Assembly: GCA_030427925.1 (NCBI GenBank)
Contig: JAUICJ010000005.1
Coordinates: 62,001-126,000 of the forward strand
Reading direction: 5' to 3'
Origin: Bacteroidia bacterium
GTDB taxonomy: Bacteria > Bacteroidota > Bacteroidia > Flavobacteriales_D > Sanyastnellaceae
DNA: 64,000 nt
Part shown: positions 4,566 through 52,867 of the stretch, in pieces
How the letters are laid out: every line of letters begins with the position of its first letter
Numbering within the stretch: position 1 is the first letter of the stretch
The notes under the pieces: generated by a model
The model's database searches: none
Told to the model about the DNA's origin: nothing
What the model saw: the letters and a program-made list of their open reading frames with translations, nothing else
Program-made: the position numbers and the translations under genes

Positions 4566-5212
4566 TGGAAACGCGATTGGAACAGCACGACTTGCGGGTC
4601 GAAAAAACAGCGAGGTACTTCGTGCTCGGCCCCGATCGTCCGGTCGGGAGGTTGTGGGCGCTGCACGGCTATGGCCAGCTCCCCCAGTACTTCTTGCGGC
4701 GGTTTGAAGCGGCGGCGGCGGCGGGTTGGCAGGTGGTCGCGCCGGAGGGGCTGCATCGCTTCTATGTGCAAGGCACTTCGGGCCGCGTGGGGGCTTCGTG
4801 GATGACGCGGGAGGAGCGGGAGACGGACATGGCGGATTACGTGCGGTATTTGGACCAAATCCATTCCCGCCTCACCCCCCACTCCGGCCCTGAATTGCTC
4901 CTCGGCTTCTCCCAAGGCGTGGCCACGGCGGCGCGGTGGGCATGCCGCGGGCAAGTGCACTTCGATGCCTTCGTCTTTTGGTCCGGTGTTTTCCCGCCGG
5001 ATTTGAAACTCGAATCCGAATGGCCAAGGAAGCCCGGCGTTCGCACCTACGTGGCCCTCGGCGATGACGACGCCTTCTTCGATGAAACGCTGCTTCAGCG
5101 CACCCGCTCAACCTTCGAATCCCACGGCATCGACCACGAAATCATCCGGTTTTCCGGTGGACACGTCGTGGATGCAGAGGCGTTACGCCTCGTGCTGGAC
5201 GCCTTCATCTGA
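4565..5212 (+). CDS. Alpha/beta hydrolase, phospholipase/carboxylesterase type
   Basis: About 215 residues from the ATG at 4565, which overlaps the preceding stop as TGATG; in-frame TTG 4559 and GTG 4562 are less likely starts. The fold is a small serine hydrolase: LWALHGYGQ near the start (oxyanion region), nucleophile elbow GFSQG, then a late Asp (GDDDAF) and His (GGHVV) completing the triad. No signal peptide, so it is cytoplasmic. The substrate is not predictable. The coding strand switches from G-rich to C-rich at 4849-4859 (see findings). Its last 30 bases overlap the convergent gene ending at 5183. Confidence 0.88.
   Translation: METRLEQHDLRVEKTARYFVLGPDRPVGRLWALHGYGQLPQYFLRRFEAAAAAGWQVVAPEGLHRFYVQGTSGRVGASWMTREERETDMADYVRYLDQIHSRLTPHSGPELLLGFSQGVATAARWACRGQVHFDAFVFWSGVFPPDLKLESEWPRKPGVRTYVALGDDDAFFDETLLQRTRSTFESHGIDHEIIRFSGGHVVDAEALRLVLDAFI
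4849..4859. repeat. TTTGGaCCAAA palindrome
   Basis: Exact TTTGG-A-CCAAA. By hand count, the 60 bases to the left hold 30 G and 10 C and the 60 to the right hold 10 G and 30 C. This is the sharpest composition switch in the window. It encodes Leu-Asp-Gln of the esterase. Confidence 0.75.
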
Positions 5213-8101
5213 CTCGAGGCAGCAGTTTTTCATGTCGCCGCTGAGCTCATACATCGCACGGCGACGATCCGAGGCATCCCGCGTGCGGTTGACCCAAGCA
5301 TGGCCGCGCGATTCCCTCGACCACGCATTCAAGTCATTGATGGCCCGATTCCTTCGCGACCGCCGGGTTTCGGGTGTATCAATGGCCCCAATTCCGAGCA
5401 AAGCATCCAATTCATCCGCATCGATTGCATCCCCCGCTCGCGGCCTCAACTGGTTCAACGTATGCGCTACCGAAGCTTCAATTTGCGGCTCCTCCTCCGA
5501 AATCACCGGAACGTTCCGCTTCCTCATCCGAATGGTGAAGAACCCAAAAGCCGAAGCGCATGCAAAGGCCGTCATGCCCCACAACCAAGGTTGACCGGAA
5601 CGAAAGGCCGCTTCGTAGGCCGATTCGCGGCTCGGCGGCTCGACCAGCCACCACTTGCCCCGTGCATCCATGAACTCCACGCCTCCCCGTCCGGGCCGCA
5701 CCGCGTGCGGCTCTTCGGGAACTGCGGCTGCCGTTTGGCGGTAAAAAGCCCCTGCTTCCACATCCAACCAGCCCATCAGCGAACGGTCGTCGTTCCAAAC
5801 CAAGGCCCATTGTCCCGTCGAAACCACGCGATTGAAACCCGCCCGCGACCGATTGAGCTGGGCGAATTCCGTCCAACCGAGCTCCGGCGATAAGCACCGC
5901 CAAACCTTCCCTCGGTTGCCGAACACCGCATAAGCCACACCGTCCTGCACCCACGGTGCGGCATGGGCCCACCCAAACGGCAGCGCCTTCGACTCCATCA
6001 ATTCCCACCCGGTGTCGGTCGGAACCAGCCACTCCCCGGAAGGCAGCATGCGCAGAACGCCCCCGCGGTAGGTCATCAAGTACCCGCCCCGGGAATCTTC
6101 CGCCTCCAGCAATTCAAACTCAGCGGGCGACTTGACCAAACCCAACAGCGGACGACCTGGCCTCAACGTGAAGTTCAGGTTGTGCATGCCATAGAACGAC
6201 GCCAAAGCCTGAGGCTCGTCCGATTCGCGGTTCAGCTTAAAGGTCACATCAAACACCACCGTCCTCTCTGGAATGTCCACAAACCCGTGGGCTCTTCCCG
6301 TGGCTCCGTCCATGCGCAGCACATTTCCTCGCCCCTTCCGGACCACTTCCGCTCCGGCATCAATGTTCAATACTTGCCCCCCATCCAAGGGCAACTCCGG
6401 ATGCTCGCCCTCAAAATCGAACCCCACCGCGCGCTCCAATCCTTCGGGCACCTTCCCGCTCCGCTGCCAATCCAGCAGGGCCTCGGGACTTGCAGCTCCC
6501 CGATGGATCGAAACATCATCCACCTCAATGGCTGAATACGAGCGCCAAGTCGTTCCGAAAAAAGCCCCCAAATGCAGCATGCGGTGGTCAAATCGCCTGC
6601 CTTCTGAACTGCCAACGAACCGCAACTCATCGTCAATGACCACGAACGTTCTTCCCAACTCATCGCGCGAATAAGTCAGCCGGTGCCATTCGCGGCTCAA
6701 GTCCATTTTCAGGCACCGATCGACCCGTTCCTCGAACACCAAATAACCCACCTCTACACACGTTTCCAACTCGCTCACCGCTCGGGATTCCGCTTCAGCG
6801 TGTTGCTGATGGCGCCAAACGTTGCGCATGGATACCGTCTCCCCTACCCCCCAAATTCCAGACGAGGCAACCGCCCATTGATCAATTGCAGGAGACCAAT
6901 CCACCTCGCGCCGCCACTGGTTCGAGGTGTTCAACTGACAGGTGAATTCCGAACCCAAGGTATCCACCAAGGTTTGCAGCACGTTGCGGGACCAACGCGG
7001 CTGGGCCGCCTCCGATGGCCCGACGTATGGCACCCACGTGAGCGTTCGGTTCCCCTCGTGCAGCGCAACCACATCGTCGTCGCCATCGCCGTCCCAATCG
7101 CTCAACCGGATGAGGGAATTGGGCTCCAACTCCGCAAGGGGTTCAGTACCAAAATCAACGCCGTCGCTTCGAAAAGGGAGGACAATCAGCGACGACGTAA
7201 TGCGATTGTGCATGAGCACCGTCCCGTCCATCTGGGTGCTGTGGTGGTTGATGATGGCCCCAAAAAGCCGGTGATCCAAGGGCGATGAAACGATGCCTTG
7301 GGCACCCACGGTCCAAAACGTAAGACGCGGAACCTCACCCGTTTGGACCGCGATGCCGACCACGCCGTTCACATCCACCGCCACATCCCAAGATTCAACT
7401 GCGGCCGTTTCAATGTCCTTCCAAGCACCCAGCCCTCCTGATGGCATCCCGAGAGCCACTTTCAACCGCTGCGACTGCTGAACGATGGCATCTTCGAAAC
7501 CGTCGCCATTGAGGTCAACGAAGTCCAAATCCTCCACATGCCCCGAAACACGGCCCAAATGCAGCATGGCCCCATTGCGTTCGAGCATCAACTGCCCATC
7601 CTCGCCCTCGCCGACAATCAAGCCGTTCCCGGTGCACCTGAAATGTCCTGCAATGGCCATCGACAAGTTTCTGAATGGAACCAATTCCCGCCCATCGAAC
7701 TTGTATGCACTGACCTCGAAACGCTTCGACCCCACGGCCCTTTTGACCCACAAAAGCGGCGGATAGGCTTCTTGACTGCGCTTGTGCTCGAAGGCGATTT
7801 GGTGGATGGCCGCGCGCTCGCCCAAAAGGTTGTACGCCTCCTCCAAGCCTTGCCCGGCGGAGCCCCAACAAACCCACAGCCCCCTCCGATCGACGAAAAT
7901 CAGGTCCACAGCACCGTCTCCATCAAAATCATCCGTTCGAAAATCCAACAATCCATCCCACGAAATCTGCAGCGACTGCGTGACGGGTTCGACAAACCGC
8001 GATCTCCAATCAGAACGTTGGATTCCCCCCTCGATCTGAGCCCAGCTCCCGAGCGCCCACAACGCTCCGACCACGCCCATCCAAAATTGTTTAGCGCTCA
8101 T
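5183..8101 (-). CDS. FG-GAP repeat protein with one membrane segment and a basic cytoplasmic tail
   Basis: 972 residues. Residues 1-21 are a signal peptide (ending GSWAQ). Acidic loops such as DFDGDGAVDL, DLNGDGFED and DWDGDGDDD mark FG-GAP/VCBS beta-propeller repeats in the first 400 residues. The middle (about 580-640) looks like a lectin-type sandwich. A hydrophobic segment at about 838-857 is followed by RMRKR, placing the last 115 residues in the cytoplasm. That tail contains DADELDALLGIGAID and a run of Arg (ETRRSRRNRAIN), which looks like a small helical, possibly DNA-binding, domain. I infer a surface or periplasmic sensor with a cytoplasmic output; no family name is certain. The 3' end overlaps the convergent esterase by 30 bases. 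Confidence 0.75.
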   Translation of the reverse strand: MSAKQFWMGVVGALWALGSWAQIEGGIQRSDWRSRFVEPVTQSLQISWDGLLDFRTDDFDGDGAVDLIFVDRRGLWVCWGSAGQGLEEAYNLLGERAAIHQIAFEHKRSQEAYPPLLWVKRAVGSKRFEVSAYKFDGRELVPFRNLSMAIAGHFRCTGNGLIVGEGEDGQLMLERNGAMLHLGRVSGHVEDLDFVDLNGDGFEDAIVQQSQRLKVALGMPSGGLGAWKDIETAAVESWDVAVDVNGVVGIAVQTGEVPRLTFWTVGAQGIVSSPLDHRLFGAIINHHSTQMDGTVLMHNRITSSLIVLPFRSDGVDFGTEPLAELEPNSLIRLSDWDGDGDDDVVALHEGNRTLTWVPYVGPSEAAQPRWSRNVLQTLVDTLGSEFTCQLNTSNQWRREVDWSPAIDQWAVASSGIWGVGETVSMRNVWRHQQHAEAESRAVSELETCVEVGYLVFEERVDRCLKMDLSREWHRLTYSRDELGRTFVVIDDELRFVGSSEGRRFDHRMLHLGAFFGTTWRSYSAIEVDDVSIHRGAASPEALLDWQRSGKVPEGLERAVGFDFEGEHPELPLDGGQVLNIDAGAEVVRKGRGNVLRMDGATGRAHGFVDIPERTVVFDVTFKLNRESDEPQALASFYGMHNLNFTLRPGRPLLGLVKSPAEFELLEAEDSRGGYLMTYRGGVLRMLPSGEWLVPTDTGWELMESKALPFGWAHAAPWVQDGVAYAVFGNRGKVWRCLSPELGWTEFAQLNRSRAGFNRVVSTGQWALVWNDDRSLMGWLDVEAGAFYRQTAAAVPEEPHAVRPGRGGVEFMDARGKWWLVEPPSRESAYEAAFRSGQPWLWGMTAFACASAFGFFTIRMRKRNVPVISEEEPQIEASVAHTLNQLRPRAGDAIDADELDALLGIGAIDTPETRRSRRNRAINDLNAWSRESRGHAWVNRTRDASDRRRAMYELSGDMKNCCLESDEGVQHEA

Positions 8102-8222
8102 CCAAAAAAATGTGCAAGAAACTGAAATTCAACATTTCCATGACAATGTACACTGAACCCAAATGCAGTCCTAATCCAAACGTGTTCATATAGAACGACC
8201 AAGGACCTGCTCGAATCGTTCG

Positions 8223-8230
8223 TAAATTGA
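8223..8230 (+). promoter_or_regulatory. -7 type box four bases before a start codon
   Basis: TAAATTGA (variant of TAnnTTTG) ends four bases before the ATG at 8235. The 133-base divergent gap 8102-8234 otherwise shows no gene. Confidence 0.45.
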
Positions 8231-8234
8231 CCAC

Positions 8235-10025
8235 ATGAAATGGGGATCGACCTTCGCCTTGCTCGTTGTCTGCACAGCTACAGCGCAAGCTCAATCGGCG
8301 GCTTGGCCGCATGAACTTTCCGAACTCGAACGGAATCATGTTGAGCGCATCGGATTTGAGCCGATTGCTGCCCGTGGCATCACCGACCCGCCGCCATTTA
8401 CCGAGTTGCGGACGGCTGCCGAGTGGGAAGAGATCGAGGCCTTGACCATTGCGTGGACGTCCTTTCCGTGCATCCAGAAGCAGATTGTTGCGGCGGCATC
8501 GCAGGAATGCACGGTCATCGTCTTCGCGGAGGATCCTGCGGCGTGCGAGAATTATTTGACGGGGTCCTCGTGCGGAGGGGCGCTTGATTTGGCATCTGTC
8601 CAAATCGTAAACGCCGAATACAACAGCATTTGGATTCGGGACTACGGCGCCACCACCGTTTACGGTTCCTTCAACGACGACCGCTTGTTGGTCGATTGGA
8701 TTTACAACCGCCCCCGGCCGCTCGATGATGCCATTCCGGATGTGCTGGGAAGCACCTTGAACGTTCCGGTCTACAGCACGACCGCCTCACCCACCGATTT
8801 GATGGGTACGGGCGGCAACTGGATGAGCGACGGGTTTGGGACGGCGTTTGCCTCGGAGCTCGTTTTGGAGGAGAACATGGGCGGTAGCACGTGGTGGACG
8901 AGCTTCCCAGACCACACCGAAACCGAGATTCGCGGCATCGTCGAGGCGTTTCACGGGGTGGATGAATACGTTCTCATGCCGACGCTTCCATACGACGGCA
9001 TCCACCACATCGACATGCACATGAAGCTGCTCGACGAGCACCGACTGCTCGTCGCGGAATACCCCGAAGGCACGGCGGATGGACCGCAGATCGAGGCGAA
9101 CTTGGAATACGTGTTGGCCAATTACACCACGCGATGGGGCACTCCGTTCGAAGTGGTGCGCATTCCGAGCCCGCCGGAAGGGGGATTTGGGGGAGGATAT
9201 CCGAATCAAGGTGGGGATTATTTGACCTACACGAACAGCGTGTTCATCAACAACACGATCCTGGTCCCCACATACTACCAGCAATACGATACCACGGCGA
9301 TTCGGATTTACGAAGAGCAGCTGCCCGGCTACAACGTAGTGGGAATCGATTGCGACAATGCGGGGGAAGACATCATCCAATTGAGCGGTGCCATTCACTG
9401 CATCACCCACAGCGTGGGCGTTGAGGATCCGTTGATTTTGAGCCACTTGCCCCTCCCGGACACCGAGGATACGGTGAACGATTATCCGGTGAGTGCGACC
9501 TGTTCGCACCGTTCCGGGATGGCGGTGGCGGAAATGCATTGGCGCGTCCAAGGCGAAACCGCTTGGAACGTGGTGACGCTATCGGATGCGGGGAACGATG
9601 AATTCACGGGGGCATTGCCTGCACAGCCCGAAGGGACCGTCGTGGAATACTACCTGCATGGAGAGGCGACGAGCGGAAAGGTGGGCAACCGACCGATGCC
9701 TGCACCGGAAGGATTTTGGTCGTTCCGTGTGGGAAGTTTGCCGCAAGGAATGGCCGTCATTGAAGGCGCGTTTTCCCAACCCGCGTTTCCGAATCCCGCT
9801 TCGGCCATTACCTGCATCCCGGTTTCGCTGCCGCGTTCAACCCGAGCAACCCTCGACGTCATCGACGCGACGGGGCGTTGCATTGAAACGGTCTACGAAG
9901 GCACCCTACCGGCTGGCACGAGCAAGCACTTCATCCAAGCAGCCGCCTGGCCGCGCGGCGCGTACCTCATCCGACTTCGCCTCGACGATGGACGGACAGG
10001 AACGCAGCGCCTGATGGTGAACTGA
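8235..10025 (+). CDS. Secreted peptidylarginine/agmatine deiminase-like enzyme with T9SS sorting domain
   Basis: 596 residues: signal peptide 1-20 (TATAQAQ), a PAD_porph/agmatine-deiminase catalytic domain to about residue 400, a linker domain, and a C-terminal T9SS type A sorting domain (starts near PNPAS, ends in a short beta-rich tail with GAYLIRL). Catalytic candidates by family alignment: Asp136 (WIRDYG), His258 and Asp260 (HHID), Cys389 (AIHCITH). Family chemistry is hydrolysis of a guanidinium group to a ureido group plus ammonia. Signal and sorting domain indicate export through the outer membrane. The layout is like Porphyromonas PPAD; whether it acts on protein arginine or free agmatine cannot be read from sequence. 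Confidence 0.9.
   Translation: MKWGSTFALLVVCTATAQAQSAAWPHELSELERNHVERIGFEPIAARGITDPPPFTELRTAAEWEEIEALTIAWTSFPCIQKQIVAAASQECTVIVFAEDPAACENYLTGSSCGGALDLASVQIVNAEYNSIWIRDYGATTVYGSFNDDRLLVDWIYNRPRPLDDAIPDVLGSTLNVPVYSTTASPTDLMGTGGNWMSDGFGTAFASELVLEENMGGSTWWTSFPDHTETEIRGIVEAFHGVDEYVLMPTLPYDGIHHIDMHMKLLDEHRLLVAEYPEGTADGPQIEANLEYVLANYTTRWGTPFEVVRIPSPPEGGFGGGYPNQGGDYLTYTNSVFINNTILVPTYYQQYDTTAIRIYEEQLPGYNVVGIDCDNAGEDIIQLSGAIHCITHSVGVEDPLILSHLPLPDTEDTVNDYPVSATCSHRSGMAVAEMHWRVQGETAWNVVTLSDAGNDEFTGALPAQPEGTVVEYYLHGEATSGKVGNRPMPAPEGFWSFRVGSLPQGMAVIEGAFSQPAFPNPASAITCIPVSLPRSTRATLDVIDATGRCIETVYEGTLPAGTSKHFIQAAAWPRGAYLIRLRLDDGRTGTQRLMVN
8588..8604. repeat. TTTGG-N7-CCAAA inverted repeat
   Basis: TTTGG and CCAAA arms separated by seven bases inside the deiminase gene. 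G-rich sequence lies to the left and C-richer sequence to the right. Confidence 0.5.
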
Positions 10026-13268: not shown

Positions 13269-14246
13269 TCAGTCGAAGCTTTGGTTCTCCTGCTCCGATT
13301 GCATCAACAGCTCCTCGTACTGCTCCGGCGTGAGGTCGTTGAAGTAGAAATGAGCGGGATTCAAGCGATCGCCGTCCTTGTGCACTTCGTAGTGCAGGTG
13401 CGGCGCGACGGAAGTCCCGGTGCTGCCCACCAGACCGATGAGATCGCCTCGTCGAACGCGATCGCCTGCCTTCACCAGAATTTCGCTCATGTGCGCGTAC
13501 AGGGTTTCGTAGCCGAAGCCGTGGCGGATGATGACGTGTCGACCGAAACCGTTGTAGCTGCGCTTCGCCAGGACGACCTCACCGTCCCCGGTGGCGAAAA
13601 TTTCCGTTCCCGTGGGCGCCGCAAAGTCCATTCCGTAGTGGAACTTGCGCACTTTGTAGATGGGATGGATGCGGTATCCGTAGCCGCTCGCCATGCGCTT
13701 GAGGTCCTCGTTTCGAACCGGCTGAATGGCCGGAATGCTCTTCAGCAATTCCGTGTTGTTGCGGGCCAAATCCAGCACTTCATCAAAGCTCCTGCTCTGA
13801 GCAACCAACTTCCGCTGCAGCTCCGCCACGCTCTCCGTGACCTCGATCAACTCCCCGGACCACGCGTGCCCTTGAAGGTGTTTCGTGCGATCCACCCCGC
13901 CAACTCCTGGGTTGCGCAAGTGCATGGGGTACGGGTCCGTTCCGAAGATGGAGCGGTAAATGGCATCGTCACGTTGCGAAATGTCTGCCAAAACTGCATC
14001 CATTTGGCCCAAATCCTCGTTCAATGAAGCGAGTTGCTCCTGCAAAAACGCCAACTCCCGATCCCGGGCCAGATCCGCAGGACTCTCGAACCACGTATCG
14101 AACACATAAATCGACCCGCCCACCATGGCAGCCATCAGCACCGCGCGCTTGAGGAACAGAAAGACGTAATCCTTCAGTTCGAACGGCACCTGCTCCAACT
14201 CGAGCGTCCGTTCATTGAACTGAATCTTATGGAATCGCTTCTGCAT
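13269..14246 (-). CDS. M23 family metallopeptidase, membrane anchored
   Basis: 325 residues: a cytoplasmic N-terminus, one membrane segment at about residues 30-50, a coiled-coil stretch (about 60-110), and a C-terminal LytM/M23 domain. Zinc and catalytic motifs are visible: HYGMDFAAPTGT (HxxxD), LYAHMSE, and HLHYEVH (HxH). Such enzymes cut peptidoglycan cross-bridges, so a role in wall remodelling or division is likely. A CACCTTTG box ends four bases before the start. It is divergent from alaS with a 78-base gap. Confidence 0.92.
   Translation of the reverse strand: MQKRFHKIQFNERTLELEQVPFELKDYVFLFLKRAVLMAAMVGGSIYVFDTWFESPADLARDRELAFLQEQLASLNEDLGQMDAVLADISQRDDAIYRSIFGTDPYPMHLRNPGVGGVDRTKHLQGHAWSGELIEVTESVAELQRKLVAQSRSFDEVLDLARNNTELLKSIPAIQPVRNEDLKRMASGYGYRIHPIYKVRKFHYGMDFAAPTGTEIFATGDGEVVLAKRSYNGFGRHVIIRHGFGYETLYAHMSEILVKAGDRVRRGDLIGLVGSTGTSVAPHLHYEVHKDGDRLNPAHFYFNDLTPEQYEELLMQSEQENQSFD
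14003..14013. repeat. TTTGGcCCAAA palindrome
   Basis: Exact copy inside the M23 gene, coding Leu-Gly-Gln on the minus strand. The right flank is C-rich; the left flank is nearly balanced. Confidence 0.65.
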
Positions 14247-14324: not shown

Positions 14325-16931
14325 ATGGAATCCCGCGCAATCCGCCAAACCTTCTTGGATTTTTTCGCCTCGAAAGGCCATGAAATCGTGCCTTCGGCGC
14401 CGATGGTCATCAAGGATGACCCCACGCTGATGTTCAACAACGCAGGGATGAATCCGTTCAAAGATTTGTTCTTGGGCAACAGCCCGGTGGTGCACCCGCG
14501 CATTGCAGATACCCAGAAGTGCCTGCGCGTGAGCGGCAAGCACAACGACCTTGAGGAAGTGGGGGTGGACACGTACCACCACACGATGTTTGAGATGTTG
14601 GGGAATTGGAGCTTCGGGGACTACTTCAAAAAGGATGCGATTGCGTGGGCGTGGGAGTTGCTCGTCGATCGGTATGGGTTGGACCCGGATCGGCTTTATG
14701 TGACGGTGTTTGCCGGAGACGACGGGGATGGGTTGCCGGAGGATACCGAGGCGAAGGAATTTTGGAAGCAGTGGATTGCCGAGGAACGGATTTTGCCTGC
14801 GGGGAAGAAGGACAACTTCTGGGAGATGGGCGAAACGGGGCCATGTGGGCCGTGTTCGGAGATCCACGTGGACTTGCGGGGTGAGGCGGAGCGGGCGGCG
14901 ACGCCGGGAGCGGATTTGGTGAACGCAGACCACCCCCAAGTGGTGGAAATTTGGAACCTTGTGTTCATGCAATTCAATCGCATGGCGAACGGTTCGCTGC
15001 AGCCCCTGCCTGCGCAGCACATCGACACCGGCATGGGCCTGGAACGCCTCGCGATGGCTCTGCAAGGGAAGCAATCGAATTACGACACGGACGTGTTCCG
15101 CCCGATGATTGCGAAAACGGAATCGCTATGCGGTGCCCGATACGACGCCACCGACAGCAAAGCCGACGTGGCCTTCCGGGTGATTGCCGACCACATCCGC
15201 GCGGTGTCCTTCAGCATCGCCGACGGACAGCTGCCCTCGAACACGGGGGCCGGCTACGTCATTCGCCGGATCCTGCGCCGCGCCATCCGTTACGGGTATT
15301 CCTTCCTCAACCTGCAGGATCCGTTCATGCACCAACTCGTGCCGGTGCTCGCCGACCACATGGGCGAGGCCTTTCCAGAGCTCCTTGCCCAGGGCGAGCT
15401 CATCGAACGGGTCATTTTGGAGGAGGAGGAGGCGTTCTTGCGCACGCTGTCGAAGGGCATCGAATTGCTGCAAGTGCGACTCGATGCGCTGCCGAAGGGG
15501 GGCACGCTCGGCGGATCGGACGTGTTCGAATTGTACGACACCTTCGGTTTCCCGGTCGATTTGACTGCGCTGATGGCTGGCGAATCGGGGTTCAAATTGG
15601 ATGAGGCGGGGTTCGAGGCGGCCTTGGCCCAGGCCAAAGAGCGCAGCCGCGCTGCTGGCAAAATCACCGCCGATGACTGGGTGGAACTCGCTCCAGGCAG
15701 CAGCACCTTCATCGGCTACGATCACCTCACCGCCGACACGCGCATCCTGAAGTACCGCGAAGTGGAAGCGAAGAAACGCCGCTTCTACCAAATCGTGCTC
15801 GAAACCACCCCCTGCTACCCCGAAGGCGGTGGCCAAATCGGCGACCAAGCGCACCTGACCTCAGGCGGCGACTGCATCTCCATTTTCGACACGAAACGCG
15901 AAAACAACCTCATCGTCCACTCCACGTCCGCCCTGCCGAAAGACCCTTCTGCGCCGGTCACGATCGAAGTGGACGTTGCCCGCCGTGAGGACGCTGCGCG
16001 CAACCACACCGCCACGCACCTGCTGCACGAAGCCCTGCGCGAGTTGCTCGGTGACCACGTGGAACAAAAGGGCTCACTCGTCAAGCCCGACGCCCTGCGC
16101 TTCGACTTTTCGCACTTCGCTCGCTTGACCGAAGACGAAATCGCAGCCATCGAACAGCGCGTCAACGAGCGCATCCTCGCGAATTTCACCCTGCAAGAGC
16201 ACCGCTCCATTCCCATCGCTGAAGCGCAAGCTGCTGGGGCGCTGATGCTGTTCGGCGAAAAGTATGGCGACGAGGTCCGGATGATTGAATTTGGGAACTC
16301 GAAAGAACTGTGCGGGGGCACGCACGCCCCGGCCACCGGCAGTTTGGGCACCTTCCGCATCCTTTCGGAATCGGCGGTGGCAGCCGGCATCCGGCGCATC
16401 GAAGCCACCACCGGCGCACACGCACTGGAACGCAGCGTCGAAGAACGGTCCACCCTCCATGCCCTGAACCAACTGCTCAAATCGAAGACCCCTGTGAAGG
16501 CGGTGGAAGACCTGCTCGAAAAGGTCAACGCACTCACGAAGGAGGTCGAAAGCTTCCAAAAGCAAGCCGCTGCGGGGGCGAAATCGGATTTGGTGGCGAA
16601 CATGGAATCCGTCAACGGCGTGAACGTGCTCATCGCCGCAATCGACTTGCCCGCAGGGGACATCAAGGACCTGGCGTTCCAACTCAAAGCCGAGCACGCG
16701 CCCTTCTTCGGCGTTTTTGGCGCTCAGGCCGATGGGAAGGCGACCCTTTCGGTCGCCATCAGCGATGACCTCGTAAAGGAGCGCGCTCTGCATGCAGGCC
16801 AAATCGTAAAGCAGCTTGCCACCGCCATCCAAGGAGGCGGGGGCGGCCAACCGTTTTTTGCCACAGCGGGTGGCAAACACCCCGATGGCCTGCCCGAAGC
16901 CTTGCAAGCCGCTCGGGAGCTCATTTCCTGA
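14325..16931 (+). CDS. alaS: Alanyl-tRNA synthetase
   Basis: 868 residues, normal length. The N-terminal class II aminoacylation domain opens with QTFLDFFASKGHEIVPSAPM. The editing domain has the zinc/catalytic set NHTATHLLHEAL and CGGTHAPATG, and the C-terminal DHHA1-type domain ends in the Gly-rich GGGGGQPFFATAGG. It charges tRNA-Ala and hydrolyses mischarged Ser and Gly. It stands alone and is followed by a strong terminator. Confidence 0.98.
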   Translation: MESRAIRQTFLDFFASKGHEIVPSAPMVIKDDPTLMFNNAGMNPFKDLFLGNSPVVHPRIADTQKCLRVSGKHNDLEEVGVDTYHHTMFEMLGNWSFGDYFKKDAIAWAWELLVDRYGLDPDRLYVTVFAGDDGDGLPEDTEAKEFWKQWIAEERILPAGKKDNFWEMGETGPCGPCSEIHVDLRGEAERAATPGADLVNADHPQVVEIWNLVFMQFNRMANGSLQPLPAQHIDTGMGLERLAMALQGKQSNYDTDVFRPMIAKTESLCGARYDATDSKADVAFRVIADHIRAVSFSIADGQLPSNTGAGYVIRRILRRAIRYGYSFLNLQDPFMHQLVPVLADHMGEAFPELLAQGELIERVILEEEEAFLRTLSKGIELLQVRLDALPKGGTLGGSDVFELYDTFGFPVDLTALMAGESGFKLDEAGFEAALAQAKERSRAAGKITADDWVELAPGSSTFIGYDHLTADTRILKYREVEAKKRRFYQIVLETTPCYPEGGGQIGDQAHLTSGGDCISIFDTKRENNLIVHSTSALPKDPSAPVTIEVDVARREDAARNHTATHLLHEALRELLGDHVEQKGSLVKPDALRFDFSHFARLTEDEIAAIEQRVNERILANFTLQEHRSIPIAEAQAAGALMLFGEKYGDEVRMIEFGNSKELCGGTHAPATGSLGTFRILSESAVAAGIRRIEATTGAHALERSVEERSTLHALNQLLKSKTPVKAVEDLLEKVNALTKEVESFQKQAAAGAKSDLVANMESVNGVNVLIAAIDLPAGDIKDLAFQLKAEHAPFFGVFGAQADGKATLSVAISDDLVKERALHAGQIVKQLATAIQGGGGGQPFFATAGGKHPDGLPEALQAARELIS

Positions 16932-21906: not shown

Positions 21907-23021
21907 TGAAACAAATCGCGGACTTTATCGAAGAAGCCGCGCTCGTTGTGCTCAGCTGCAGGCTCGAAATTGGCGGACTTGCGCAGGGTTTCAAGCGCTT
22001 TGCGTTCTTCGTCGGAGAGTTTTTGGGGGGTCCAAACGTTGATGTTCACCAGCAAATCGCCCTTGCCGTAGCTGTCCACTGCCGGCAGTCCTTTGCCACG
22101 CAAGCGAACAAGCTTTCCGCTCTGGGTTCCAGGCTCGATCTTGATTTTTGCACGGCCGGAGATGAGCGGAACTTCGGCATCCGCCCCGAGGGCCACGTCA
22201 GCGAAATTCACGTACAGGTCGTAATGCAAATTCTTTCCGTTGCGCTTGAGGTGTTCGTGCGGAATTTCTTCGATGACCACGAGCAAATCGCCCGGAACGC
22301 CGCCCATTGGTGCGCCGTTGCCTTCACCTCGAACGGAAAGCTGCATGCCGTCCTCGACGCCTCCTGGGATGTTGATTTCCACCACGGACTCTTCGCGAAC
22401 CATGCCCCATTCGTCGGAACCCGAGGGCCGCTTCGTGATGCGCTGACCGCTGCCTTGGCAGGCGTTGCAGGTGGTGGCGGTTTGCATTTGGCCCAAAATC
22501 GTGTTGGTCACCCGGCGCACCTGGCCGGTGCCGTGGCAAGTGGAACACTCCGCATATTCTGCCCCCTTCGCTTCGACCTGCTTGAAGACCTTGACCTTCT
22601 TCTTCGCGCCATTCGCGATTTCTTCGAGGGTCAACTTGACCTTGATGCGCAAGTTCGAGCCTTTCATTCGCCGACGGCGACCGCCGCCACCTCCACCGCC
22701 ACCTCCACCAAATCCGCCGCCGAAAATGTCGCCGAACTGGCTGAAGATGTCGTCCATGTTCATGCCGCCGAATCCGCCGGGGCCGCCGGGGCCGCCACGC
22801 ATTCCTTCGTGACCAAACCGGTCGTACTGGGCACGCTTCTGGGAATTGCTCAGCACCTCGTAGGCCTCAGCCGCCTCCTTGAACCGCTCCTCGGCATCCT
22901 TGTCGTCGGGGTTCTTATCGGGGTGGTACTTGAGGGCCAACTTCCGATACGCCTTCTTGATTTCCGCGTCGCTCGCTTTGCGATCGACACCGAGTACTTC
23001 GTAAAAATCGCGCTTCGCCAT
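21903..23021 (-). CDS. dnaJ: Chaperone protein DnaJ
   Basis: 372 residues. J domain with HPD ([10 protein letters not shown]), a Gly-rich linker encoding about ten consecutive glycines (near 22690-22720), a zinc-binding region and two beta-sandwich domains. Only two CxxCxGxG repeats are present (CSTCHGTG and CNACQGSG) where classical DnaJ has four, so a single zinc site is expected; from memory this short form is usual in Flavobacteria. It works with DnaK and with GrpE, whose gene ends three bases upstream. Confidence 0.97.
22487..22497. repeat. TTTGGcCCAAA palindrome
   Basis: Exact copy inside dnaJ, coding Leu-Gly-Gln on the minus strand. The left flank is clearly G-rich, the right flank mixed. 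Confidence 0.65.
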
Positions 23022-27323: not shown

Positions 27324-27752
27324 ATGCAAGGCAAAATCATCACCGACCACGGCACCATGACCGTGGAATTCTTCGAGCAAGATGCTCCCAACACCGTCGC
27401 GAACTTCGTGAAGCTCGCGAAAGACGGATTTTACGAGGGGCTGAAGTTTCACCGCGTCATTCCGGGATTTGTGGCCCAAGGCGGCTGCCCCAACGGCATC
27501 GGAAACGGCGGTCCCGGTTACCAAATCGACTGCGAATTGACCGGCGGCAACCAGTACCACGACAAAGGCGTGTTGAGCATGGCTCATGCTGGTCGCAACA
27601 CCGGTGGCAGCCAGTTCTTCATTGTTCACAGCCGGGAATCCACCGCGCATTTGGACGGCAACCACACGTGCTTCGGCAAGGTCGTGGACGGTTTGGACCA
27701 AATCGATCAAATCAAGCAAGGCGACACCTTCCGGGTGGAAATCGTCGACTGA
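27324..27752 (+). CDS. Peptidyl-prolyl cis-trans isomerase, cyclophilin type
   Basis: 142 residues, a compact cytoplasmic cyclophilin of the PpiB kind with no signal peptide. The active-site segments are present: [14 protein letters not shown] (catalytic Arg) and [17 protein letters not shown]. It speeds proline isomerisation during folding. It begins directly after its promoter box and is followed by a GC-rich hairpin. Confidence 0.95.
27692..27702. repeat. TTTGGaCCAAA palindrome
   Basis: Exact copy in the cyclophilin gene (Leu-Asp-Gln). The left flank is balanced (20 G, 19 C in 60 bases), so there is no clear strand switch here. Confidence 0.6.
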
Positions 27753-30977: not shown

Positions 30978-32135
30978 ATGAATCAGCCACCTCGCATCCA
31001 CATGGTCGATTTGATCGGCCAGCACGCCCACATTCGTTCTGAACTCGATGCTGCCCTCCAACAAGTCGTCGAATCGGGCGCCTACATCAAGGGGCCGGAC
31101 GTGGACGCGTTCGCTGAAGAATTGGGCGCGTACTGCGGTGTGAAGCACGTCATTCCCTGCGGCAACGGCACGGATGCCCTGCAGATCGCCTTGATGGCAG
31201 CGGGCGTTGGACCCGGGGACGAAGTCATCACCACGGGCTTCACCTTCATCGCCACCGTGGAAGTGGTCGCGCTCTTGGGGGCCGCGCCGGTGCTGGTCGA
31301 TGTCCACGCGGACACGTTCAACATCGACGCCGCCGCCATCGAACGGGCCATCACGCCGCGCACGAAGGCCATCGTGCCCGTGCATTTGTTCGGTCAGCCC
31401 GCGGACATGGACGCGGTCTTGCGCATCGCGGACGCCCACGATTTGGTGGTCGTGGAGGACAATGCCCAAGCCATCGGAGCGCATTGGTGTGGCGAGCGGG
31501 CCTCGGGCCAAACCGGATCCCTCGGACACCTCGGCACCACGAGCTTTTTCCCTTCGAAAAACCTGGGCTGCATGGGCGACGGCGGAGCGGTGTTCACCAA
31601 CGACGATGCGCTGGCTGCCCTCGCGCGGAGCATCGCGAACCACGGCATGGAGCAGCGCTACCACCACGATCGGGTGGGCATCAATTCGCGGTTGGACACG
31701 CTGCAAGCGGCGGTGCTCCGGGTCAAGTTGCGCCACCTGAACGCGTACATCGCTGCGCGACAGGCTGCGGCGAAGCGATACGACGCGCTGCTCGCTGACG
31801 CTCCTGGCATCACCGTCCCCTTCCGGGATGAACGCGCCACGCACGTGTTTCACCAGTACACCCTCGTCCTCGAAGGCACCGACCGCGATGCGGTGGTGAA
31901 GTTGTTGGCAGCGGACGGCATTCCCACCGGGGTGTATTACCCGGTGCCCGGACATGCACAGGCGGCGTTCACGGGGTTCAATTATGACGCCACCGCGTTT
32001 CCTGTTAGCGATTTTTTGGCCCAAAACGTGCTCTCCCTGCCGATGCACACCGAACTTACAGAACTTGAACAGCAGCACATCGTCGAGCGCCTTAAAGTCG
32101 CCTGCGTCGCTGCCCAAACCACCTCATTCGCATGA
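30978..32135 (+). CDS. DegT/DnrJ/EryC1 sugar aminotransferase (WbpE-like)
   Basis: 385 residues, PLP-dependent. The Schiff-base lysine is Lys194 in SFFPSKNLGCMGDGGA, and the cofactor segments CGNGTDAL and VEDNAQAIGA are clear. Similar enzymes (WbpE/WlbC) aminate UDP-3-keto-GlcNAcA. The neighbouring 6-dehydrogenase and hexapeptide acetyltransferase fit that pathway. It overlaps the next gene by four bases and is the first gene of the operon. Confidence 0.9.
   Translation: MNQPPRIHMVDLIGQHAHIRSELDAALQQVVESGAYIKGPDVDAFAEELGAYCGVKHVIPCGNGTDALQIALMAAGVGPGDEVITTGFTFIATVEVVALLGAAPVLVDVHADTFNIDAAAIERAITPRTKAIVPVHLFGQPADMDAVLRIADAHDLVVVEDNAQAIGAHWCGERASGQTGSLGHLGTTSFFPSKNLGCMGDGGAVFTNDDALAALARSIANHGMEQRYHHDRVGINSRLDTLQAAVLRVKLRHLNAYIAARQAAAKRYDALLADAPGITVPFRDERATHVFHQYTLVLEGTDRDAVVKLLAADGIPTGVYYPVPGHAQAAFTGFNYDATAFPVSDFLAQNVLSLPMHTELTELEQQHIVERLKVACVAAQTTSFA
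32015..32025. repeat. TTTGGcCCAAA palindrome
   Basis: Exact copy near the end of the aminotransferase gene (Leu-Ala-Gln). Right flank 21 C to 12 G; left flank balanced. Confidence 0.65.
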
Positions 32136-33451: not shown

Positions 33452-34434
33452 TGGAGCGGGTTCTGATTACGGGGGCCGCGGGATTCTTGGGTTCGCATTT
33501 GTGCGATCGGTTCCACGCCGAGGGGTTTGACGTCATCGGTTTGGACAACCTCATCACGGGGGACATGAAGAACCTCGAGCACCTCATCGGGCAAGATCGG
33601 TTCACCTTCATGAAGCACGACGTGAGCAATTACGTTCACGTTTCGGGCGAACTGCACCACATCCTGCACTTTGCATCGCCCGCGAGCCCGATCGATTACC
33701 TGAAGATTCCAATCCAAACGTTGAAGGTGGGGTCGTTGGGCGTGCACAATTGCTTGGGATTGGCCCGGGCGAAGGGGGCGCGCATGACGATTGCCTCCAC
33801 GAGCGAGGTGTACGGTGATCCCGAGGTGCACCCGCAGCACGAGGAGTACTTCGGCAACGTGAACACAATCGGTCCGCGCGGGGTGTACGACGAGGCGAAA
33901 CGCTTTCAAGAATCGATGACGATGGCCTACCACCGGTACCACGGATTGGAAACGCGCATCGTCCGCATTTTCAACACGTACGGACCGCGAATGCGGCTGA
34001 ACGATGGGCGGGTGTTGCCGGCCTTCATCGGACAGGCGCTGCGCGGGGAGGATTTGACGGTGTTCGGGGACGGCTCGCAGACGCGGAGTTTTTGTTACGT
34101 GGACGATTTGGTCGAAGGCATTTTCCGCCTGCATTTCTCGAATGAAACGCGTCCGGTGAACATCGGCAATCCCGATGAAATCACCATTCGCGAGTTCGCC
34201 GATGAAATCATCGCGCTGACCGGCACGGACCAAAAAGTCGTCTACCGCGAACTGCCCGAAAACGACCCGAAGCAGCGGCAACCGGACATCGCCCGAGCGC
34301 GCGAAGTGCTCGGATGGGAACCCCGCGTGGATCGGGCGGAAGGGTTGCGCCGCACGTACGCCTACTTCAAAAGCCTCACGCCGGAAGAGCTGAACAAATC
34401 CGAGCACAAAGCATTCGAAGCCTACAAGCGATGA
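33451..34434 (+). CDS. UDP-glucuronate decarboxylase (UDP-xylose synthase)
   Basis: 327 residues, extended [22 protein letters not shown], and the YDEAKR form of Tyr-x3-Lys, which together with [15 protein letters not shown] is characteristic of UXS. It turns UDP-GlcA into UDP-xylose. Its position right after ugd gives a complete two-step route from UDP-glucose. Confidence 0.93.
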
Positions 34435-35027
34435 GCGAGCCTGCATACTTTGCCCACGAAACGGCGGTCATCGATGCGGGTTGCACCATCGGAGCAGGCA
34501 CGAAGATTTGGCATTTCACGCACGTGATGGCGGGAGCGACGTTGGGAGCGGGCTGCAATTTGGGCCAAAACGTGGTGGTCTCCCCTGGCGTGACCCTCGG
34601 GCGCAACGTCAAGGTCCAAAACAACGTGAGCATCTACGAAGGCGTGACGTGTGACGACGACGTGTTCCTCGGTCCCAGCTGCGTCTTCACGAACGTGACG
34701 AATCCGCGGAGCGCCGTAAACCGCCGCGGACAGTACGCGCGCACGCACGTCGGTCGTGGCGCCACCATCGGAGCGAACGCCACCATCGTCTGCGGTCACG
34801 ACCTGGGCGAATTCTGTTTCATCGGAGCGGGTGCCGTCGTGACCCATGCCGTGAAACCCTACGCGTTGGTCGTGGGCAACCCGGCTCGGCAAATCGGCTG
34901 GATGTCCACCCACGGACACCGCCTCGAATTCGATGCACAGGGCCGCGCCCAATGCCCCGAATCCGGGAGCACCTATGAACTCATCGGCAACGAAGTGCGC
35001 TGCACCCTTGCCCCAAACAACGATTGA
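34431..35027 (+). CDS. Hexapeptide-repeat N-acetyltransferase (WbpD-like)
   Basis: 198 residues from the ATG at 34431, overlapping the previous stop by four bases. Left-handed beta-helix repeats (for example [21 protein letters not shown]) and late [12 protein letters not shown]. WbpD-type enzymes acetylate the 3-amino group of UDP-GlcNAc3NA, following the aminotransferase that opens the operon. Usual family length. Confidence 0.9.
34559..34569. repeat. TTTGGgCCAAA palindrome
   Basis: Exact copy in the acetyltransferase gene (Leu-Gly-Gln). Left flank 23 G to 13 C; right flank balanced. Confidence 0.65.
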
Positions 35028-42014: not shown

Positions 42015-43091
42015 ATGGAAACGACGAAGCGCACGGTGCTCTTTGCGGCGCTGGATTGGGGGCTCGGGCACGCGACGCGGTCGGCGTCGTTGATCCGCGC
42101 GGCGATAGAGGACGGGCATCGGGTGCACGTGGCGTCGAGCGGGCCGGCGCTGGCGTGGCTGCGGGCGCGGTTTGCCGACGATGGGGTGACGTTTCATGAG
42201 AAGCCCGGGCGGGCCATCCGGTATGCGCGGGTGGGCACGGGGGTTCGGATTGCGCTGCAAATGCCGGGATTTTTGAGGAGCATCGGGGAGGAACGGCGGT
42301 GGACCGAGGGCTGTGTGCGCCGCCATGGGGTGGACCGGGTGTTCAGCGACAACTGCTATGGGGTGGCGGCGGAGGGGGTGCCGAGTGTGTTGATGACGCA
42401 CCAGGTGCATTTGCCGGTGCCGGGGGTGCTGCGGGCGGGGGCGCGGGCGTTTGTGCGGGGGCAGGCGGCGCGGTTTGGGGAGGTGTGGGTGCCGGATGGG
42501 GAGGGGGAGCGCGGCGAGGGGCGGTTGAGTGGCCGGTTGGGCGGGCCGGCGTTGCATCCGCGGACGCGGTTCATCGGGGGGCTGAGTCATTTGCCCGCGG
42601 ACGGGGGGACGCGTTCGGAGTGGGCGATCGTGGGGGTGGTGAGCGGGCCGGAGCCGCTGCGGTCGGCGTTGGAGGCGGCGTACCGGGAGCGGTTTGCGGG
42701 GGCGTTGCGGGCGGGTGAGCGGGCGCTGATTGTGGCGGGGCGGCCAGGCGGCGGGGTGCGGGAGGATGGGGCCGTGACGACGTGGTATTCGCCGGATTCG
42801 GCGGCGTTGGCGGGCGCGTTGAAGGGGGCCGGTCGGGTGGTGTGCCGGAGCGGGTATTCGACGTTGTTGGATTTGGCCCAAATCCGCGTGCGCGCCCACC
42901 TCATCCCCACCCCTGGCCAGCCCGAACAGGAACTCCTCGCGGCCCATTTCGCCCGCGCCTTCGGCTGGTCCACCTCTTCCCAACGCGCCTTCGCCGCCGG
43001 CGCGCCCTTCCCGACCACCGGCCAACCGCTGCACCTGCCCGCCAACACCGAAGCCCTCGCCGCCCTGCGCGCTTGGCTCGCCAAAGAATGA
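42015..43091 (+). CDS. Glycosyltransferase, GT28/MurG-like
   Basis: 358 residues, GT-B plan: ALDWGLGHATRSASLI at the start and a nucleotide-binding C-terminal part with CRSGYSTLLDLAQI and PTPGQPEQELLA. It resembles UDP-glycosyltransferases of the MurG/YjiC group; donor and acceptor are unknown. The first 850 bases use almost only G-ending codons and the rest C-ending codons, with the break at 42872. Overlaps tadA by four bases. Confidence 0.87.
   Translation: METTKRTVLFAALDWGLGHATRSASLIRAAIEDGHRVHVASSGPALAWLRARFADDGVTFHEKPGRAIRYARVGTGVRIALQMPGFLRSIGEERRWTEGCVRRHGVDRVFSDNCYGVAAEGVPSVLMTHQVHLPVPGVLRAGARAFVRGQAARFGEVWVPDGEGERGEGRLSGRLGGPALHPRTRFIGGLSHLPADGGTRSEWAIVGVVSGPEPLRSALEAAYRERFAGALRAGERALIVAGRPGGGVREDGAVTTWYSPDSAALAGALKGAGRVVCRSGYSTLLDLAQIRVRAHLIPTPGQPEQELLAAHFARAFGWSTSSQRAFAAGAPFPTTGQPLHLPANTEALAALRAWLAKE
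42869..42885. repeat. GGATTTGGcCCAAATCC, extended palindrome
   Basis: Fullest form of the motif, eight-base arms around a single base. Hand counts of 60-base flanks around the core: left 31 G and 10 C, right 14 G and 30 C. Confidence 0.78.
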
Positions 43092-44965: not shown

Positions 44966-45913
44966 ATGACGATTTACTTCCTCGAAACGGTTCACGAGCG
45001 GCTTGCAGAGCGCTTGACTGCGGCGGGGCACACGTGCATTGAGGCATTCAGCGTGCAGCGTGCGGACGTGCTCGCAGGCCAAATCTCCGACGCGCACGGC
45101 CTCGTCGTCCGCTCCCGCTTCCTCGTCGATGCGCCCCTGCTCGCGGCCCTTCCCGAACTGCGCTTCATCGCCCGCAGCGGCTCCGGCCTCGAAAACATCG
45201 ATCTGCCCACCGCGGCTTCCCGCAACGTGGCGGTATTCAATTCGCCCGAAGGCAACCGGGTCGCCGTTGGCGAACACGCCCTCGGCATGCTCCTCGCGTT
45301 GCTGCACAAACTGCACGTCGCAGACCGCAGCGTCCGCGCGGGAGCGTGGCTGCGCGAGGCCCATCGCGGCCTGGAGCTGAGCGGACGCACCGTGGGCATC
45401 ATCGGCTTCGGCCAAATGGGCTCCGCCTTCGCTCAACGCCTCCAAGGTTTCGAATGCCGAATCCTCGCATACGACAAGTACCGCACCGATTGGCCGGCAC
45501 AGCCCGGACTGCAAGCCGTGGACGAAGCCACCCTGCTCGCTGAATCCGATGTCATCAGCCTCCACCTTCCCTTGACCGACGAAACCCACCACCTCGTCTC
45601 CTCCCACTGGCTGCAGCGCTTGGGCAAATCCCCCATTCTCATCAACACCTCCCGAGGTCCCATCGCTTCCACCGGTGCCCTGGCCGAAGGCCTGCAACGG
45701 GGTTGGATTTCAGGCGCCGCCCTCGACGTGCTCGAAGAAGAAGGCCGTGACCTCCTCAACTTGACCACCCGTTCCGAAGCCCTCGAAGCCTTGGCTGCGG
45801 ACCCGCGCGTCATCTTCAGCCCGCACGTCGCCGGCTGGACGCAAGAGAGCTACTTCAAACTCAGTGACGTGCTCGCCGACAAGGTCCTGAGGGCCTTTCC
45901 ACAACCCCACTGA
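44966..45913 (+). CDS. D-isomer-specific 2-hydroxyacid dehydrogenase
   Basis: 315 residues in the SerA/hydroxypyruvate reductase superfamily. NAD motif GIIGFGQMGSAFAQ, substrate/catalytic Arg in INTSRGP, and active-site His in SPHVAGWTQES. There is no C-terminal ACT domain, so it may be a 3-phosphoglycerate dehydrogenase of the short kind or another family member. It starts one base after mgtE ends. Confidence 0.88.
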   Translation: MTIYFLETVHERLAERLTAAGHTCIEAFSVQRADVLAGQISDAHGLVVRSRFLVDAPLLAALPELRFIARSGSGLENIDLPTAASRNVAVFNSPEGNRVAVGEHALGMLLALLHKLHVADRSVRAGAWLREAHRGLELSGRTVGIIGFGQMGSAFAQRLQGFECRILAYDKYRTDWPAQPGLQAVDEATLLAESDVISLHLPLTDETHHLVSSHWLQRLGKSPILINTSRGPIASTGALAEGLQRGWISGAALDVLEEEGRDLLNLTTRSEALEALAADPRVIFSPHVAGWTQESYFKLSDVLADKVLRAFPQPH

Positions 45914-47747: not shown

Positions 47748-47758
47748 GATTGCGATGA

Positions 47759-48604: not shown

Positions 48605-48741
48605 GAGAATCAGGTTGATGGTGTGTTTCGTTCCTTGTAATGTGCGCTGAGCGGATTCAGTCCAAATCCGATTCAACGGGTGCAAATGTAGGACGGGCAA
48701 TCGTTTCTACAAACTTTCACAGGTTAAACCTCTGTCGGCGG

Positions 48742-50754: not shown

Positions 50755-50784
50755 TCCTGCGAAAGTACGGGCGAACTTTGCCGC

Positions 50785-51003
50785 ATGACTCCTCGCCCTC
50801 CCCGTTGGAAATTCGCCGTCGTTGTTTGGCTGGCCATCTACCCGTTGGTCACGCTGTTCTTCGGCGTGTTTGGCGGCCAAATCATGGCCATCCATCCGCT
50901 CCCCTTGCGCACCCTCGTCATCACCCTCGTGCTGGTGCCGTTGATGGTGTTCGGCCTCATTCCGTTGCTCCAAAAACTGCTTCGGAATTGGCTATCCAAA
51001 TGA
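50785..51003 (+). CDS. Small two-helix membrane protein
   Basis: 72 residues with two hydrophobic helices ([37 protein letters not shown]). GAACTTTG ends four bases before its ATG, and the DUF255 gene is divergent 30 bases away. Unknown function. Confidence 0.65.
50869..50881. repeat. TTTGGC-G-GCCAAA palindrome
   Basis: Six-base perfect arms around one base, in the small membrane protein gene; the frame (Phe-Gly-Gly-Gln) differs from other copies. Right flank 27 C to 12 G, left flank balanced. Confidence 0.6.
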
Positions 51004-51006
51004 CCC

Positions 51007-51885: not shown

Positions 51886-51889
51886 GCTT

Positions 51890-51897
51890 GGAAGGTA
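51890..51897 (-). promoter_or_regulatory. -7 type box of the pirin gene
   Basis: Minus-strand TACCTTCC, four bases before the ATG at 51885. Confidence 0.35.
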
Positions 51898-51937
51898 CGA
51901 CAGCAATGGGTTTCAAGCCAAATACTTGTATCAACAA

Positions 51938-52867
51938 CTACTGAATGAATCCCTGTTTTGCGCGCTCCACTTCCGCCTTGAACTGCGCGTCGCCCAACAC
52001 GTCCATGCCGCCACCGTTCAGAAACGGCAACACGAACCGCACAGCCGGGCGGTAATCGGCCACCACAACCTTCAACGCCACGCGCCCGGTCGCCTCGTCC
52101 TGCTTGAGGTGCGGAGTGGCGAGGGGCGCCTCCGACTTGAGAAACAGCGCCACCTGCATCGACATCGACAACTCGATGCGCTTGTGGGCGGTCGCCAGGT
52201 CGAGCGCAAACCCGAAAATGTCCGGCGCGTGGACCCGGTGCTGGGCAGTCAGCGAAATGGGAACGGGAAGCACCTCCACCTCGGCAATGCGATCGAGTCG
52301 GTAGTACTTGTTCGTTCGGGTGGCCACCTCGAACGCCGCGAGGAACCGATGGCCGCCGACGAATTCCATCGGCTCGACGATGCGGTTGGAGACCGTGCCG
52401 CTGTTCGCCGATTGATAGCCCTTGAGCAGGACGCGGTGCTGGGATCCGATTCCTTCGCTGATTTGGCCCAAAATCCGCGCCACCCCCGCGTCCGCAATCC
52501 ATCGCGCCAACTCATTGCTCGGCTCAAACACGTTCAACTTCGCAGCAATCGAAGCCACCTCATCCCGAGTTGGAAACGCAATGCGCAGCGCCTGCAAAAT
52601 GAGCTCCGCTTCTTGCGACGTGAACACATGATCCAAGTCCTCGGACTTGATGTAAAAGCCACCGTCCGCGTCCTTCTCCACGCCAAACCCCACATCCTCA
52701 ATGAGTCGGAGGTAACGGTACACCGACCGCTGCCCCGTCTCCAACCGCTTAGCAAGGGACCCAATGCTGTGACGCTGACCAGAACGCAATACGCGAATCA
52801 ACAACAGCAACCGATGCAATCGATTCTGATTGAAGTCACCACCTGTCGGACGACCACCTTGTGCCAT
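51938..52867 (-). CDS. WYL-domain transcriptional regulator
   Basis: 309 residues: N-terminal winged helix (SIGSLAKRLETGQRSVYRYLRLI), then a WYL domain (about 145-230, with KYYRLDRIAEVEVLP) and a C-terminal extension. WYL proteins sense small ligands or single-stranded nucleic acid and often control stress or defence genes; no defence genes are adjacent here. Targets unknown. Confidence 0.9.
   Translation of the reverse strand: MAQGGRPTGGDFNQNRLHRLLLLIRVLRSGQRHSIGSLAKRLETGQRSVYRYLRLIEDVGFGVEKDADGGFYIKSEDLDHVFTSQEAELILQALRIAFPTRDEVASIAAKLNVFEPSNELARWIADAGVARILGQISEGIGSQHRVLLKGYQSANSGTVSNRIVEPMEFVGGHRFLAAFEVATRTNKYYRLDRIAEVEVLPVPISLTAQHRVHAPDIFGFALDLATAHKRIELSMSMQVALFLKSEAPLATPHLKQDEATGRVALKVVVADYRPAVRFVLPFLNGGGMDVLGDAQFKAEVERAKQGFIQ
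52462..52472. repeat. TTTGGcCCAAA palindrome
   Basis: Exact copy inside the WYL gene (Leu-Gly-Gln on the minus strand). Right flank 28 C to 11 G; left slightly G-rich. Confidence 0.65.

Follow-up and report, generated by a model that had tools for sequence, protein, structure and literature searches.

The closest described systems are the uptake sequences of Pasteurellaceae (USS, with the core AAGTGCGGT and AT tracts) and of Neisseriaceae (DUS). As presented in PMC7811141 and PMC2346458, both have a short asymmetric core, with a directional flank in the USS, and both occur in high copy number on the two strands, in genes and between them, with dialects that differ between clades. A bias of uptake sequences towards gene ends is reported in PMC2346458 for Pasteurellaceae and given there as not significant in Neisseria. 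Neisseria and Haemophilus, known users of uptake sequences, are described in PMC7965970 as importing DNA through type IV pili. Another kind of importer has been described in Flavobacteriales. According to PMC8459023, transformation of Riemerella anatipestifer depends on an outer-membrane protein that has a CarboxypepD_reg domain, on a DUF5689 protein next to it and on ComEC, DprA, ComF and RecA, among others, and uses genes described there as having no known counterpart elsewhere. Transformation of R. columbina was competed by its own DNA and not by equal amounts of DNA from R. anatipestifer or E. coli, and the passages on candidate uptake motifs give only A/T-rich k-mers (PMC7965970). Among the literature matches listed, all open-licence PMC papers, none established an uptake sequence for Bacteroidota, which does not imply absence in print, and nothing beyond the Riemerella papers was relevant to the phylum.

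The sequence described here shares with USS and DUS the short asymmetric core, the high copy number on both strands, inside genes and outside them, and the clade dialects, and with the USS the directional flank. It differs from them in that it is unrelated in sequence, belongs to the phylum Bacteroidota, has a 40-bp C-rich tail in place of the AT tracts, favours overlapping back-to-back doubles, and occurs where no pilus ATPase was detected; its role in uptake is one that we infer. It was noticed in a stretch of 64 kb (the window; contig C18:62001-126000, with positions below counted from its first letter) of a genome of 2.95 Mb in 51 contigs (G000; 99.5% complete). An earlier note had singled out the palindrome TTTGGNCCAAA, for which we found no match in open-licence PMC papers. 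All eight of its coordinates in the window are exact, and five related inverted repeats are present at 8588, 18658, 24621, 26718 and 50869, with gaps of 7, 0, 4, 4 and 3. The expectation of about 0.03 copies was too low, dinucleotide shuffles of the window giving a mean of 0.14 and a maximum of 2 (100 shuffles); the conclusion of over-representation drawn from it holds. Counted over the whole genome, as had been proposed, the palindrome occurs 140 times and the reversed pattern once, a density of one palindrome per 21 kb on average.

Codon choice fails to explain this excess. The codon shuffle that had been named as a refutation test leaves it standing in the approximately 27% of the genome covered. 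A 439-kb sample has 27 coding palindromes, against 0.9 (global) or 1.4 (within-gene) after synonymous-codon shuffling and 2.1-2.7 when the shuffles also keep the bases at codon junctions. The larger sample of 662 kb of called coding sequence has 38, against 2.2 +/- 1.3 and a maximum of 5 in 60 synonymous shuffles. The sole other genome of the window's genus returned by our searches (G001; 87% complete) has 24 against 0.7 in 323 kb of coding sequence. Several designs of synonymous shuffling thus rule out a plain codon or amino-acid explanation, and the over-representation claimed for the window turns out to exceed codon choice, to be genome-wide and to be limited to a clade. TTG and CAA are the preferred Leu and Gln codons of G000. 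The statement that all eight palindromes encode Leu-(Gly/Ala/Asp)-Gln in the frame TTG-GNC-CAA stands for the window, where seven of the eight sites lie in called genes in this frame and the eighth (34559) fits an open reading frame at 34314-35027 in the same frame. The frame is not universal elsewhere: in the 439-kb sample it applies to 23 of the 27 coding sites, and the other four are in other frames.

Other patterns were also surveyed. A maximal-order Markov scan of the k-mers of G000 gave weak pointers (GCCAAA, z 4.5; ATTTGG, z 3.8), because such a model absorbs most of the signal. Other gapped palindromes, such as TCGA-N5-TCGA (73 against 21 by simple product), were discarded because synonymous shuffling does not place them with the strongest excesses. 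An unrelated k-mer family, CGATG/CATCG, is over-represented in the 439-kb sample (2519, against 1675 in synonymous shuffles and 2107 with codon context kept) and does not appear in the list of the 5-mers with the strongest one-sided skew in G000. GATC-N5-GATC and GATC-N2-GATC are depleted in G000 coding sequence (3 against 18 and 5 against 19 in synonymous shuffles).

The palindrome is not the unit of the signal. It consists of two back-to-back copies of a one-directional tag, with a core of approximately AGNCCAAAYC of which CCAAA-Y-C is the strictest part. The earlier note missed that the half-site on its own is enriched and has a direction. In 382 kb of G000 coding sequence there are 1613 single CCAAA, against 864 in synonymous shuffles, and comparison with synonymous shuffles also gives 1145 against 358 for CCAAAYC and 98 against 8.4 for AGGCCAAAYC in this genome (544 against 164 and 74 against 4.0, respectively, in the congener). 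The strongest 7- to 10-mers of G000 are asymmetric, as exemplified by AGGCCAAA (123 against 20 in synonymous shuffles) and AGGCCAAATC (42 against 3). Genome-wide, AGNCCAAAYC outnumbers its reversed pattern by 776 to 83 in G000 and by 666 to 44 in G001. Doubling adds to this: in a 795-kb sample of G000, the double form with a gap of 1 occurs 49 times, against 3.6 expected from the half-site counts, and facing half-sites with an equal gap occur once. Among back-to-back TTTGG/CCAAA pairs in this sample, gaps of 1, 4, 7, 10 and 13, which correspond to one codon frame, are commoner (49, 15, 9, 10 and 14) than most; the count at gap 0 is also high (13).

The tags are evenly shared between the strands. 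The 795-kb sample has 1,351 CCAAAYC, 685 on the forward and 666 on the reverse strand, and the four largest contigs sampled show no strand bias (182/175, 110/121, 107/100 and 143/138). A replication-strand reading (Chi or KOPS) was rejected on the absence of orientation bias. In G000, facing tags are depleted to 0.27-0.40x for separations of 25-100 bp, and tags that lie back to back no more than 12 bp apart show a 4.7-fold enrichment. Uptake sequences are expected to be spaced more evenly than random. Of four patterns compared in this respect, only CCAAAYCC is clearly more even at 10-20 kb, with a variance-to-mean ratio of 0.48 at 10 kb and 0.49 at 20 kb; the other three, related to it, stay close to random (0.96-1.04) at 10 kb, and all four give 0.77-0.86 at 2 kb. 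The coding sites of G000 show no clear bias towards gene ends, being distributed roughly flat across gene quintiles.

Each tag is followed by a tail on one side only. At 721 CCAAAYC sites of G000, the excess of C over G on the 3' side, as a fraction of all bases, is 0.13 at +10..20 and 0.11 up to +40, then fades to approximately 0.02 by 400 bp, and the 5' side is near zero. At the coding sites (n=1083) the difference is +0.118 at +10..40 and -0.004 upstream, against 0.03-0.05 downstream and 0.00-0.03 upstream in five synonymous shuffles. CCAAA has the largest one-sided skew of the 942 5-mers (471 complementary pairs) of G000, with a z of 16.8 (the z values have a spread of 1.95), and also the largest among the 5-mers of G001 (z 11.4). 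The effect is concentrated at third codon positions. Around +20..26 of sense CCAAAYC, C gains up to 0.21 there and G loses up to 0.19; the corresponding figures for sense GGCCAAAYC are 0.31 and 0.27. At antisense sites the third-position change is about half that of sense sites, and first and second positions change little (up to 0.04). The tail thus arises mainly through synonymous G-to-C swaps. It has an equal sign in 11 of 11 contigs sampled and is also seen at 78 sites outside called genes. Two accounts of the tail were dismissed. A Rho-type RNA signal, considered for its C-over-G composition, is at odds with the equal numbers of sense (60) and antisense (63) AGGCCAAA. Mutational strand asymmetry is at odds with the pattern of change, in which C gains from G and T and A barely moves, unlike cytosine deamination.

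Palindromes of G000 have one tag on each side with the tails pointing outward, so that on average the skew changes at them from G-rich on the left to C-rich on the right. The double sites of the window, to which we assign no strand, show how much individual sites vary in their 40-bp flanks. The flip is seen at 4849..4859 (TTTGGACCAAA; gene of an FSH1-like hydrolase), with 20 G and 6 C on the left and 5 G and 21 C on the right, at 42872..42882 (TTTGGCCCAAA; G19/C6 and G8/C23), and at 52462..52472 (TTTGGCCCAAA; WYL/HTH regulator gene on the reverse strand; G14/C10 and G7/C21). Only the right tail is seen at 32015..32025 (TTTGGCCCAAA; DegT/DnrJ aminotransferase gene; G7/C15), and only the left one at 34559..34569 (TTTGGGCCAAA; G19/C9). 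The skew is weak at 22487..22497 (TTTGGCCCAAA; dnaJ-like gene on the reverse strand; G17/C10 on the left, G15/C14 on the right) and at 27692..27702 (TTTGGACCAAA; G15/C11 and G10/C10). Several palindromes of the window are without a G-to-C flip by these 40-bp counts, such as the one at 14003..14013 (TTTGGCCCAAA; M23 peptidase gene on the reverse strand), which has G8/C12 on both sides. Single directional sites AGGCCAAATC lie on the forward strand at 16796..16805, 45076..45085 and 62607..62616, and GGCCAAATC, at 50875..50883 on the same strand, is the right half of the gap-3 repeat at 50869. In total, with this last site included, the window has 16 GGCCAAAYC and 99 CCAAAYC (52 forward, 47 reverse).

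The tag is shared with relatives to different degrees: tag and tail are found again in the congener and, with less strength, in two further genera. The palindrome occurs 145 times in the congener, and among the 114 genomes of the family that were searched it occurs 18-45 times per genome in genus g3, 8-41 times in g14 and 0-19 times outside g1, g3 and g14. Enrichment of the tag is clear in these three genera, roughly 2-4-fold in g13, g5, g7 and g4, and near background in g18 and g20. Genus g14 prefers CCAAACC, and two of its genomes (G032 and G132, with 40-44% GC) have a similar tail at CCAAAYC (+0.14 to +0.15 at +10..20); in G132, CCAAA is second among distinct 5-mers (z 2.8) and the C excess at CCAAAYC is also found upstream, up to 0.05. 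Within g3, CCAAA is the top one-sided 5-mer (z 5.6) and AGGCCAAA the top 8-mer (39 against 7) of G107, and in G003 the enrichment is weak and the tail at CCAAAYC is not clearly seen. The stretches sampled from genera of the family (f1) span 40% to 61% GC (G032 and G001, respectively) and yet retain the CCAAA tag. In 79 named loci of Bacteroidota (1.5 Mb), CCAAA is absent among the eight 5-mers listed, the best of which is GGTCC with a difference of 0.03, and across 250 kb of E. coli the z of a 5-mer never rises above 3.1.

Positions of the sites are kept between the two genomes of the genus. In a codon alignment of 108 kb, where four-fold sites are 46.5% identical, 5 of the 8 aligned palindromes are kept in place in G001, a small sample, against a baseline of 7-15% identical 11-bp windows depending on phase (12% for main-frame windows whose amino acids are identical). 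CCAAATC is kept at 61 of 122 sites, joint second among its 46 anagrams (mean 0.29). The conservation of bare CCAAA (0.38) is unremarkable among anagrams, and equals that of AACCA and ACAAC. In a tree of alanyl-tRNA synthetases with 31 rows (the window and 30 of 80 named loci), the organism of the window groups with a MAG labelled Flavobacteriales (95/95), and its deeper placement is weak (53/14). Among the loci compared, the synthetase closest to the window's is that of PBNL01000047.1, titled 'Euryarchaeota archaeon SP189', which falls inside Bacteroidota; it is probably a mislabelled or mixed MAG.

Among the roles put forward for the palindrome in the earlier note, that of an uptake site is the one that the evidence favours most. 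The resemblance to uptake sequences comes from the asymmetric core, the one-sided flank, the many copies on both strands and in and out of genes, the lack of replication bias, and the clade dialects. The family of the type IV pilus ATPase (PF00437, T2SSE family) had no match over the cut-off in G000 or in G001 (87% complete). Uptake through type IV pili was therefore set aside, the tag is not classed with pilus-based uptake sequences, and the importer that we propose is of the other kind described in Flavobacteriales. ComEC is present in 38 of 40 relatives as well as in G000. Contig C48 of G000 encodes, adjacent and on one strand (L181:7690-13881), a lamin-tail-domain protein, a TonB-dependent receptor (CarboxypepD_reg and Plug) and a DUF5689 protein that is fused to both a PLD-like domain and a type-9 secretion tail; on contig C77 of G001 (L167:10927-16177) the genes for a TonB-dependent receptor and for such a DUF5689-PLD protein, secretion tail included, likewise adjoin on one strand. 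This neighbourhood is a candidate surface DNA-processing complex. With ComEC, it recalls the Riemerella system in its CarboxypepD_reg outer-membrane protein adjoining a DUF5689 protein, a likeness at the level of domains, and it differs from that system in the PLD-like domain and type-9 secretion tail of the DUF5689 protein. We infer that the complex may take up DNA in these bacteria or read the tag. DUF5689 genes are also present in tag-free relatives, such as G018 and G020, so the machinery is no predictor of the tag and cannot alone explain how the tag is distributed.

Other readings of the same sites have to be weighed against this one. An iterated palindrome comparable to HIP1 of cyanobacteria, which is tied to methyltransferases in PMC4390886, would owe its origin or upkeep to a DNA methyltransferase, or to repair linked to one, acting on GGNCC. 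Like HIP1, the palindrome is over-represented in many unrelated genes; it is centred on GGNCC and limited to a clade. This reading, which the earlier note had also offered, has become very improbable: the unit is a directional half-site with a one-sided tail and not a palindrome, the palindromes lie one per 21 kb, GGNCC itself is not enriched (1971 against 2305 in synonymous shuffles), and PF00145 (cytosine-5 methyltransferase), the one family searched, has no match in G000, G001, G003 or G014. We give hardly any credence to the idea that the sites have no function and result from codon-pair or nearest-neighbour bias. Shuffling with two bases of codon context preserved does lift the expectation (1224 of the 1613 CCAAA), but it still leaves 27 palindromes against 2.7, the signal is found at sense and antisense coding sites alike, in more than one frame and also outside called genes, and shuffling fails to reproduce the one-sided tail.

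Two further readings are, in our view, unlikely. A Chi-like site would stop AddAB at the complement GRTTTGGNCT and leave the G-rich strand on its 5' side as the single strand to be coated by RecA. RecA favours G/T-rich strands, the motif is G/T-rich on the GRTTTGG strand, and the geometry fits, with the G-rich strand 5' of GRTTTGG. The AddAB-type nuclease domain (PF12705) is found in G000 and in 36 of 36 relatives, and its two matches in G000 belong to open reading frames of 939 and 1131 aa, lengths that suit AddB and AddA. A TGA flagged inside the AddA-like match (9170-9619) is the gene's own stop, since the 1131-aa frame ends at 9604. However, the domain is equally present in motif-free relatives, where another Chi is possible. 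The tag shares with Chi (RecBCD/AddAB) its over-representation, its directionality and its G/T-richness on one strand, but it lacks strand bias in all the large contigs, whereas Chi of E. coli is strongly one-sided in 3 of five 50-kb segments (2/10, 1/8 and 11/4) and has no one-sided flank (67 sites). Nothing relevant to Chi in Bacteroidetes was among the literature matches listed. The other of these readings supposes that a chromosome-organising protein (a nucleoid protein, condensin or translocase) reads the core and 40 bp on one side, with the palindromes as strong dimer sites. The positions kept in the congener, the preference for a fixed one-base gap (49 against 3.6 expected) and the spread of sites over genes and DNA outside called genes are in line with it. 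Translocase guides are usually strand-biased, unlike the tag.

We nevertheless retain, tentatively and with doubt slightly outweighing belief, the reading that this directional chromosomal tag, doubled in the palindrome, acts like an uptake signal sequence, with import by a TonB-receptor/DUF5689 route. In this view, a receptor for DNA on the cell surface would recognise the core together with the 40 bp next to it, tagged DNA would be imported preferentially, and recombination of the imported DNA of kin would build up the tag on both strands; a double site could be gripped from either side. The importer would consist of a TonB-dependent receptor with a secreted DUF5689 protein (a PLD-like fusion) as its neighbour, followed by ComEC. 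The weak part of the tail, out to 400 bp, is longer than the footprint expected of a receptor and counts against the uptake reading. So do the undetected pilus ATPase, the lack of a gene-end bias like that of Pasteurellaceae, the clear evenness of spacing in just one of four patterns, the tail not seen at CCAAAYC of G003, the lower rank of CCAAA and the upstream C excess in G132, and those palindromes of the window that have no flip. A fuller version of this proposal, possible and rather more doubtful, is that of a self-DNA code without type IV pili: a surface complex of TonB receptor and DUF5689-PLD protein would read CCAAAYC and the 40-bp C-rich strand next to it, and biased uptake would have endowed the genomes of at least three genera with hundreds to thousands of tags each, for the most part through silent changes of codon.

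With a concrete motif and a measured flank, sequence-specific uptake in Bacteroidota becomes directly testable. The imposition by a short core of a one-sided, 40-bp and mainly synonymous bias has no counterpart around the Chi control sites of E. coli, and it means that a signal at the level of DNA has a share in setting the codon choice of these genomes.
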